DNA of 64,000 nucleotides, from assembly GCF_009649075.1 (NCBI RefSeq), contig NZ_CP045737.1:2418001-2482000 (forward strand), written 5' to 3'. Position numbers and translations under genes: made by a program. Under the pieces are notes generated by a model, which was given only the letters and a program-made list of their open reading frames with translations, was not told the origin of the DNA and made no database searches. This DNA is from Aeromicrobium yanjiei (GTDB taxonomy: Bacteria; Actinomycetota; Actinomycetes; Propionibacteriales; Nocardioidaceae). Below, one piece after another: positions 23,097-60,790 of the stretch; within the stretch, counting starts at the first letter, position 1; the number at the start of each line of letters is the position of its first letter.

Positions 23097-23660
23097 GTGA
23101 GTGCACCCGCTGAAGTCCCCGACCTCGTCGCGAGCACCCTGGACCTGTCCCGCCAGCGCGGATTCATCACCTCGATCCGCAACGAGACCGGACGCCTCCT
23201 CGCCACGCTCGCTGCGTCCCGCACCGGCACGCTCGCCGAGCTCGGCACCGGCTGCGGCGTCGGATCGGCCTGGCTCTCCAGCGGCGCCCCCAAGGGTGCC
23301 CGGGTCGTCAGCGCCGAGCTCGACCCCGTCCTCGCCGAGGACGTGCAGAAGATCTTCGCCCGGACCGACAACGTCGACGTGATCGCCGGCGACTGGTCGA
23401 CGCTCGAGCAGTACGCACCGTTCTCCCTGCTCTTCGTCGACGTGCGGGAGGTCATGGAGAGCATCGACGTCCTCGCCGACCTGATGGAGCCCGGCGGCAT
23501 GGTCATCCTCGACGACTTCGTCCCGTCGGCGTTCTGGCCGCCCATCGTCGAAGGCCGGGTCGACACCGTCCGCGAGCAGTGGCTGACCGACGAGCGCTTC
23601 GCCGCAGTCGAGATGCTGATCGACGTCGACGCCTCCCTCATCATCGCCACCCGCCGCTGA
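23097..23660 (+). CDS. SAM-dependent O-methyltransferase-like protein
   Basis: A 187-residue class I methyltransferase. The SAM-binding motif I is LGTGCGVGSAWL near residue 45, followed by motif II SAELDPVLAEDVQ, DVIAGDW, LLFVDVREV and MVILDDF, the order typical of caffeoyl-CoA/O-methyltransferase-like Rossmann enzymes. Substrate unknown. The GTG at 23097 has AACACT exactly 6 nt upstream, so the mRNA is likely leaderless; a TTG ten codons earlier is an alternative. The stop codon lies inside the first unit of the 21-bp repeat array that follows. Confidence 0.82.
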   Translation: MSAPAEVPDLVASTLDLSRQRGFITSIRNETGRLLATLAASRTGTLAELGTGCGVGSAWLSSGAPKGARVVSAELDPVLAEDVQKIFARTDNVDVIAGDWSTLEQYAPFSLLFVDVREVMESIDVLADLMEPGGMVILDDFVPSAFWPPIVEGRVDTVREQWLTDERFAAVEMLIDVDASLIIATRR

Positions 23661-23831
23661 CGAGTCACGCACGGCGGCCGACGAGTCACGCACGGACGCC
23701 GACGAGTCACCTACGGAGGCCGAGGAGTCACTCAGCGTTGCCGCAAAGTGACTCGTCACCGGTCATAGGTGACTCGTCACCGGTCGTACGCGACTCGTCA
23801 CCGGTCGTGCGCGACTCGTCGGCGGTCGAGG
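23659..23831. repeat. Two opposed arms of four 21-bp repeats at convergent gene ends
   Basis: Four units of period 21 (23659, 23680, 23701, 23722) each begin GACGAGTCAC (the last GAGGAGTCAC). After a 5-bp centre come four units of the same period in the opposite orientation (23748, 23769, 23790, 23811), each beginning GTGACTCGTC or GCGACTCGTC. Single-stranded RNA from either strand could fold into a stem of up to about 80 bp in several registers. The left arm begins at the methyltransferase stop; the right arm is translated on the minus strand as seven-residue repeats. Likely a bidirectional terminator, but far more elaborate than needed. Confidence 0.9.
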
Positions 23832-24405
23832 CGGAGGTGAACGGCATGAAGAGCTGGACGAGCGGGCCGATCGTGAGGGCGTACAGGACAGTGCCGACGC
23901 CGACCGTCCCGCCGAGGAGGAAGCCCACCGCGAGCACTGCGACCTCGATGACCGTCCGCCACAGCCGCACGCTGCGCCCCGTACGCCTGACAAGACCGAG
24001 CCACAGCCCGTCGCGGGGGCCCGGCCCGAGCGCGGCGCCGATGTACAACGCCCCGGCGAACCCGTTGCCGACGATCCCGCCCACGAGCAGCATGGCTCGC
24101 AACCACAGCTCGTCCGGCTGAACGATGACTGCGATGCCGAAGTCGGCAGCGAGGCCGATGACGAGCACGTTCAGGACCGTCCCCACACCCGGCAGCTGCC
24201 GCAGCGGGATCCACAGCAGCAGGACGAACGCGCCCGTGACGATGACGACCTGACCGAACGTCAGACCGACGTGCTCGGTCACCCCCTCGTGGAAGACGTC
24301 CCACGGGTCGAGGCCCAGCGTCGACTCGACCAGCATCGCCATCGTGAATCCGTAGAGGAACAAGCCGACGTTGAGGCGCACGAGCCGCCCGAGCAGGCCG
24401 TTCAC
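23728..24405 (-). CDS. yczE: YczE-type integral membrane protein with a repeat-encoded tail
   Basis: A 225-residue membrane protein with about six hydrophobic segments, starting VNGLLGRLVRLNVGLFLYGFTMAMLVES and containing GLDPWDVFHEGVTEHVGLTFGQVVI and LYIGAALGPGPRDGLWLGLVRRTGRSV, as in the YczE/YitT-related family of unknown transport function. The last 30 residues read DESRTTG, DESRTTG, DESPMTG, DES..., encoded by the right arm of the 21-bp repeat array; such a tail is not a family feature. The GTG start overlaps the stop of the small gene upstream (GTGA). It is divergent from a MocR-type regulator, as known for YczE-YczR pairs. Confidence 0.8.
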   Translation of the reverse strand: MNGLLGRLVRLNVGLFLYGFTMAMLVESTLGLDPWDVFHEGVTEHVGLTFGQVVIVTGAFVLLLWIPLRQLPGVGTVLNVLVIGLAADFGIAVIVQPDELWLRAMLLVGGIVGNGFAGALYIGAALGPGPRDGLWLGLVRRTGRSVRLWRTVIEVAVLAVGFLLGGTVGVGTVLYALTIGPLVQLFMPFTSASTADESRTTGDESRTTGDESPMTGDESLCGNAE

Positions 24406-26080: not shown

Positions 26081-26164
26081 CGGACCGGAGGCTCGCGTCA
26101 GCGAGCCGTAGAGGCGCGTCAGGGGACGGGAGGCTCCCCTCAGCGGACGGGAGGCGCGCGTCAG
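26081..26164. repeat. Four tandem 21-bp units between convergent genes
   Basis: Four direct units of period 21 (starting 26081, 26102, 26123, 26144) end in CGTCAG or CCTCAG and share CGGACGGGAGGC; a partial fifth unit follows. Neighbouring units carry matched changes that make local inverted repeats, for example GGCTCG with CGAGCC (26090-26107) and AGGGGA with TCCCCT (26121-26140). The array lies between the MocR gene and ilvC, upstream of a separate terminator hairpin. Confidence 0.8.
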
Positions 26165-26179
26165 CGGTGGGATGCGAAA

Positions 26180-57063: not shown

Positions 57064-57093
57064 CTTACCTGGGCTTACCTGGGCTTACCTGGG
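57064..57093 (-). repeat. Three perfect 10-bp tandem repeats between nadA and nadB
   Basis: On the minus strand the unit CCCAGGTAAG occurs three times in a row. The nadA stop codon (TAA) lies in the first unit, and the last unit runs into AAGGA, the nadB ribosome-binding site. Copy-number change here would alter the nadA-nadB spacing by 10 nt steps. Confidence 0.75.
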
Positions 57094-60660: not shown

Positions 60661-60682
60661 TGCTCCCCCCGGTTGCCGGTTT

Positions 60683-60739
60683 CCCACGGGACCGTGGGGT
60701 TTCGTCACTCCCCTCGGGTCGCAACGCGAGGGAAGTGAC
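60683..60739. terminator. Two hairpins between convergent ligase and SPFH genes
   Basis: CCCACGG (60683-60689) pairs with CCGTGGG (60692-60698). A longer stem, GTCACTCCCCTCG (60704-60716) with CGAGGGAAGTGAC (60727-60739), has one mismatch in 13 and a 10-nt loop. The second is a good bidirectional terminator; no U-tract follows either. Confidence 0.75.
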
Positions 60740-60790
60740 CAAGACGCGCGGGAAGCGGCTCAGCAGGCGGGACGCCCGGGGCGGCCGCGC

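Follow-up and report, generated by a model that had tools for sequence, protein, structure and literature searches.

The opposed 21-bp repeats at the junction of a methyltransferase gene and a membrane-protein gene in Aeromicrobium are probably a small copy, without a gene, of a repeat element whose fuller form in the same genome (G000, 3.68 Mb) carries a nuclease gene, its own nuclease spreading and homogenising the repeats. The nuclease goes together with the repeat word in the genus, and this association recurs with other words in sister clades; the dispersed copies face inward beside stop codons, and their units are alike within a genome. From these observations we infer binding, cutting, copying and mobility. 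The features concerned are as follows, with positions in the 64-kb window, i.e. the whole stretch of DNA analysed, unless stated otherwise.

23097..23660, plus strand: methyltransferase gene (Methyltransf_24), its stop codon overlapping the first array unit
23659..23742, plus strand: left arm, four 21-bp units, GACGAGTCAC three times and then GAGGAGTCAC
23732..23747, no strand: centre between the facing words, 16 bp
23737..23831, minus strand: right arm, four units facing the left arm, GACGAGTCAC twice and GACGAGTCGC twice
23728..24405, minus strand: membrane-protein ORF, reading through the right arm into a DESRTTG-type tail
G000 contig 2, ~1423256-1424460, outside the window: fuller element, a single gene enclosed by two arms that face inward

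TRF found two 21-bp tandem arrays at this junction, 23659-23731 (3.5 copies, 88% match) and 23750-23828 (3.8 copies, 89% match), and an inverted-repeat search paired 23654-23737 with 23742-23825 (84 nt, complementarity 75%, separation 4 nt). The A word (GACGAGTCAC, GAGTCAC) is exact at 23659, 23680 and 23701 on the plus strand, followed by GAGGAGTCAC at 23722; on the minus strand GACGAGTCAC is exact at 23748 and 23769, and the outer two units of the right arm read GACGAGTCGC. The opposed arrays at a convergent gene junction, which a first-pass annotation of this DNA had described, are thus present by both searches and by the word positions. Its statement that a 10-mer is kept in all eight units needs to be narrowed: the exact 10-mer is found in five of the eight, and GAGTC in all of them. 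It overlooked the link to the nuclease gene and the membership of the array in a dispersed family, in which gaps of 14-16 bp between facing words are the commonest class.

The methyltransferase does end in the first unit, as had been claimed, and the ORF ending at 23728 translates the right arm as the DESRTTG-type repeats noted earlier. This ORF has no Pfam match at E 0.001. In the relative G002 (locus L135) the membrane-protein ORF was also seen by eye to read through the right arm. The tail looks like a by-product, because the stop codon just precedes the array at most other array loci. A coding origin of the 21-bp period (7 codons) was rejected, as the arrays lie outside genes or at their very end. 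Among 30 loci fetched for this junction, two of which (L162 and L163) were read at a wrong stop codon, the array is present in G000 and G002. The repeats are therefore not absent or unrelated in all close relatives, part of the outcome that the first-pass annotation had set against itself, since G002 has an array of different units at the same junction. The same convergent gene pair was seen by eye without an array in nine relatives (L138, L142, L144, L145, L149, L153, L154, L160 and L161).

The A word is dispersed over the genome. GACGAGTCAC occurs 33+36 times in G000 and the reversed word 4+0 times. At least 18 array loci were recognised in stretches fetched around GACGAGTCAC matches, a count that misses arrays having no exact word; few further A-loci are probably to be expected. 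The design is constant, with 21-bp units in two arms facing inward and mostly adjoining a stop codon. The 135 units of these 18 loci give the consensus GACGAGTCACGYACGGACGCC, in which GAG (positions 4-6) and C (position 8) are invariant and T (position 7) is kept in 133 units; the word part of this consensus is favoured because the units were located by the word. Self-matching at lag 21 was found in 35 stretches and at lags 20 and 22 in none, over 223.5 kb of own DNA, much of it chosen around word matches. The outer array edge lies no more than 35 bp from a stop codon in 17 of the 18 loci, using a simple gene caller. In the exception, L017, a terminator-like hairpin was seen by eye between the array and the stop codon. 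Lone words are present at four further places (L013, L022, L024 and L026:3950).

Across 49 same-genus genomes, two units 21 bp apart are found in seven and three GAGTCAC words 21 bp apart in eight, while the reversed pattern of 21-bp-spaced words is found in none of the 49. In named stretches, 62 of the 80 A-word matches listed (the best 80 of 97) are from Aeromicrobium. The other 18 of these best 80 are single words except in L047, L108, L074 and L052. In L047 and L108 (Scytonema) the words are repeated in steps of 42, and L047 looks coding; L074 (Spirochaetota) has more than a single A word, among the matches listed. L052, a Frankiaceae MAG contig, carries an opposed A-word array at 176-325, adjoining a long run of G, and encodes no nuclease; contamination and transfer are alike possible sources.

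The gene between the arms of the fuller element encodes a protein of ~305 aa, with an AbiEi-like N-terminal half and a Vsr-like nuclease in the C-terminal half. The arms stand ~1 kb apart around the same gene in G000, RYN_200 and LF-bin-295, and our own gene caller finds only this one gene between them in L014. A nuclease orthologue is encoded in seven of the eight genomes with GAGTCAC arrays (G000, G002, G021, G030, G038, G039 and G048) and in none of the 41 others, for which the Fisher value of 9.3e-8 is nominal, the species being related. In the eighth, G033, the arrays are present and no orthologue was found in what is a 71%-complete MAG. The copy in G030 has 53% identity, within the identity range of the paralogues, and was assigned as an orthologue from the tree.

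The structure model of the nuclease has a mean pLDDT of 90.1. Its N-terminal half matches AbiEi (6y8q) in Foldseek with E 1.2e-5 and probability 1.00, and the superposition is poor (Z 6.8, rmsd 8.7). The C-terminal half (residues 195-298) superposes on the homing endonuclease I-Bth0305I with Z 10.6 and rmsd 2.5 over 93 residues, and on Vsr with Z 8.0-8.9. By this model it is a PD-(D/E)XK-like nuclease of the Vsr kind. E200, D232, E243 and D245, invariant in 25 aligned rows, would be its catalytic residues, and the bracketed enzyme presumably cuts DNA. The G000 protein scores below the Pfam gathering cut-offs of MTES_1575 (PF18741, 20.8 vs 38.2 bits) and DUF559 (PF04480, 15.6 vs 20.6), and is thus a relative of these families and no filed member. 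Pfam and NCBIfam scans gave no transposase domain in it at E 1. At E 1e-15, 112 of the 148 genomes sampled from the class have matches to the AbiEi-Vsr-like nuclease, up to 14 per genome.

Loci of the same design with different words, a comparison that the first-pass annotation had proposed, do exist at the nuclease paralogues. In the genus these are bracketed by arrays of other words with periods of 22, 21 and 19 (19 in G004), and the deeper paralogues by single inverted repeats instead of tandem arms. Three words read from nuclease flanks are dispersed in the matching genomes of two genera. TGACGCGTGGGTT, read from the flanks in five genomes, occurs 24 times in G006, 12 in G008, 40 in G036, 97 in G038 and 81 in G048, once each in G030, G042 and G044, and never in 41 genomes. 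TTTCCCACGGGACCGTGGG occurs 19 times in G000 and six times in G002, with none in 47 same-genus genomes. GAGGAGAGGATCC, predicted for G056 of another genus before the search, was found 60 times there, once in G094 and not in six others. The reversed-word controls of all three gave 0.

A tandem repeat flanks the gene on at least one side in 7/7 A orthologues, 14/16 B paralogues, the single G004 gene (1/1), 18/20 top hits and 12/20 lower hits from other genera, and 0/16 distant paralogues; for random window pairs the figures are 17/920 on at least one side and 0/920 on both. The lower-scoring hits were rejected as negative controls, since 12 of the 20 are array-flanked, which is why the edge of the family was at first misplaced, and they were replaced by 764 control genes from G000, G045, G008 and G003. 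An inverted 21-mer (at least 19/21) brackets 63 of 80 nuclease genes and one of these 764 controls, where 40 of the 80 nuclease genes come from other genera and the control set does not. By group it is found in 7/7 A, 13/16 B and 0/1 G004 genes, 18/20 top hits and 12/20 lower hits of other genera, and 13/16 distant paralogues, the last figure counting L255, whose match looks like a coding coincidence as do those of L248 and L257. L266, having no hit, was left out of the flank test.

The repeat format follows the enzyme. On a tree of 79 nucleases it changes 11 times, compared with a mean of 39.7 for shuffled labels and none of 200 shuffles as low; the labels were assigned by hand and 'single' includes rows with no sure inverted repeat. 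Period 32 is confined to one branch. Outside the family, an inverted 21-mer of at least 19 is found at 12 of 22 class-level loci, many near GTTGATCATGCA, in a set that has no control of its own and includes L344 with no right flank. Inverted repeats with a common core near GTTGATCATGCA / GATCATGGAG were noted in other families of the class (L332, L333, L336-L339, L354, L355 and L359).

How the arms are read can be judged from their geometry. Of the facing pairs no more than 150 bp apart, counted over eight species, 63 (59 distinct) point inward and none outward. Gap lengths between facing A words are phased at ~10.5 bp, with a best-fitting period of 10.55 (R 0.90, n=45; G002 excluded as a near copy). 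The gaps of another array family, in G036 and G038, taken from lists that cover part of the places, fall into two classes offset by half a unit (R 0.89, n=25), and R drops to 0.77 (n=30) with G006 and G008 added. Two founder centres and the loss of inner units could be the source of the two classes. The p values of the phase are nominal, because arrays share ancestry and inner units get lost. Arms in register within one array agree no better than arms of different arrays in the same genome, at 8.876 vs 8.869 of 10 word positions and 6.84 vs 7.55 of 11 spacer positions. The table for the innermost position 3 (CC 20, GG 16, GC 11, CG 10 and two others) leans towards matching. Taken together, the gap phase and the lack of register-specific covariation favour a protein reading duplex DNA over an RNA stem.

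We suggest the following mechanism. The nuclease would bind its own word in duplex DNA, and since 21 bp make two helix turns, the bound nucleases would line up as neighbours along the same face of the helix. It would then cut or nick within arrays, and repair from other arrays would copy and homogenise the units. Such repair might now and then seed a new 3' junction, giving a slow and rare spread, gene 3' ends being the places where such copies are least harmful. Any influence on where transcripts end or on how stable the mRNAs are would be secondary.

Different arrays of one genome agree at 7.55 of 11 spacer positions and those of different species at 5.46 of 11; word agreement between species is 8.96 of 10, a figure favoured by the way the arrays were found. 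We saw no mobility: three A-array loci of G000 were checked by sequence and all are occupied in G002 too, which suggests that turnover or spread is slow. About a dozen further loci of the two genomes pair up by position offset alone. Neither a target-site duplication nor a clean empty site could be defined, as occupied and empty junctions were compared at two places and the gene ends there are too divergent for edges. At one orthologous convergent junction A-word arrays are present in G000, G002 and G021, G045 has its own word, and G008 has a plain hairpin. Either repeated landing of new elements or rewriting of resident arrays could account for the differing words. The array at L012 2949-3027 (G000) and L273 ~310-650 (G002), the same locus, differs in the length of its centre, ~80 bp in one genome and ~340 bp in the second, and the two centres look unlike.

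An alternative hypothesis could be that only the nuclease gene is mobile, i.e. a homing-type endonuclease inserts into pre-existing arrays, which themselves spread by replication slippage and ordinary gene conversion. I-Bth0305I is the top structural match of the nuclease half, and the gene lies at the centre of opposed arrays like a homing gene in its site. However, the arms beside the gene remain intact, so that insertion leaves the sites undestroyed, most of the distant paralogues lack an array and are bracketed by single inverted repeats, and within the genus the tested words are numerous only where a nuclease with that word was found, G033 excepted. We consider this hypothesis unlikely.

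A host function of the arrays, ending transcription in both directions or capping mRNA 3' ends, with the nuclease binding them or processing RNA, is quite improbable. Their position close to stop codons would fit such a role, as would the plain hairpin of G008 at a junction where four species have arrays. The RNA fold is strong too (-121.1 kcal/mol, z -7.32), as any inverted array would give. But the very long RNA stem that the first-pass annotation offered as the function finds no support in the sequence: the arms have no in-register likeness, nine relatives with the same gene pair are arrayless, and there is no T-run terminator-like site in 23400-24100. An RNA-stem function was therefore rejected in spite of the fold, and so was an intrinsic terminator, the GC-rich hairpin being strong and its U-tract absent. 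A stem would not need helical spacing of its arms either, L017 has a separate terminator-like hairpin beside its array, and at least 18 A-loci, with probably few more, are a small number for 3.68 Mb.

A regulatory or defence module, in which the AbiEi-like half acts on the flanking units as a repressor of its own gene and the scattered units are extra operators or self marks restraining the nuclease, agrees with the AbiEi-like fold, with flanking repeats placed where an operator would be and with a CTGTGGAY motif upstream of the modelled start, but is very unlikely given the single gene between the arms in L014 and the dispersed units at 3' ends of unrelated genes, not at promoters.

The CTGTGGAY motif is found upstream of the modelled nuclease start in 51 of 80 loci (0.005 expected per window), in the top group mainly at a distance of 34-51 bp, and occurs as CTGTGGACAAC in several loci, e.g. 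L228, L288, L298 and L303. It resembles a DnaA box, so nuclease expression may be tied to replication.

Among known systems, our preferred reading, an element family spread by its own nuclease, comes close to REPIN/RAYT. PMC3116915 describes dispersed extragenic repeats, often in inverted pairs, with the same repeats in non-coding DNA beside a dedicated nuclease gene, and PMC3733652 gives the single REP as a 20-40 bp palindrome tagged GTAG or CGTC. Here too the repeats are dispersed, extragenic, in inverted pairs and flank a dedicated nuclease gene. Unlike in REPIN/RAYT, the enzyme is a predicted Vsr-like PD-(D/E)XK nuclease fused to an AbiEi-like half, and the repeats stand in tandem arms with a unit of 21, 22 or 32 bp or, at deeper paralogues, as single inverted repeats. 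The A word contains an imperfect dyad and its complement ends in CGTC, and the consensus 21-bp unit forms no clean hairpin. RAYT-driven REPs were rejected for G000, where Y1_Tnp (PF01797) has 0 matches at E 0.001; the control search was positive in 5 of 14 known genomes.

In MITEs and their autonomous transposons, too, the fuller member has a gene enclosed by inverted ends and the small ones consist of the ends only, and a gene bracketed by inverted repeats, the trait shared with IS and MITEs, is what the 63 of 80 nuclease genes against 1 of 764 controls display. In contrast to MITEs and IS, there is no transposase domain, no target duplication could be defined and the ends are multi-unit arrays. 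I-Bth0305I (PDB 3r3p), a Vsr-like homing endonuclease, has the same nuclease fold, whereas here the repeats bracketing the gene have further copies dispersed over the genome. The AbiEi antitoxins of type IV toxin-antitoxin systems share the fold of the N-terminal half, with the poor superposition given above; here that half is fused to a nuclease, and L014 has no second gene between its arms. CRISPR was rejected because the spacers are not unique, the rest of the 21-bp unit being alike across the genome.

Searches of the open-access literature gave no paper linking AbiEi-Vsr-like nucleases to repeats. The enzyme and the repeat format fit no kind that we found; judged by its logic alone, the system could be counted as another form of the REPIN/RAYT lifestyle. 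We see an even chance that this is undescribed self-spreading bacterial DNA, in which AbiEi-Vsr-like nucleases each have a private word, present at gene 3' ends in the form of helically phased, opposed tandem arrays or of single inverted repeats, the word and repeat length co-evolving with the enzyme and the array of a junction being rewritable into the word of the resident enzyme. This gives a testable role to a large uncharacterised actinobacterial gene group and would explain scattered repeats at gene ends. If true, the REPIN/RAYT way of life would have been invented twice independently, the second time with an unrelated nuclease, and the many natural enzyme/word pairs would make a ready data set on the change of DNA words by nucleases.

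Two further repeat families have members in the window as well.

26082..26167, minus strand: second-family array, four 21-bp units near GGACGGGAGGCTCCCCTCAGC (complement GCTGAGGGGAGSCTCCCGTCC), word matched by eye
60673..60760, plus strand: third-family copy with TTTCCCACGGGACCGTGGG at 60680-60698, outer edges approximate

The GGACGGGAGGCTCCCCTCAGC/GCTGAGGGGAGSCTCCCGTCC word adjoins the nuclease paralogue of G002, so G000 has arrays of the word that flanks the nuclease of G002 while its own paralogue carries another, 22-bp word. The second-family arrays of G000 are possibly a relic of an older word. Further ones (GCTGAGGGGAGSCTCCCGTCC) were noted in G000 at L269 395-728. TTTCCCACGGGACCGTGGG brackets the nuclease gene at G000:C2:3207841. 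The third family is also seen at L009 12740-12900 and L275 15630-15770, in part as palindromic elements ~115 bp long; their end is a match to the inverted repeat around that nuclease gene. Two other repeats were noted in the window, a 30-bp tandem repeat of 2.9 copies at 2537-2622 and a perfect CTTACCTGGG triplet at 57064-57093.
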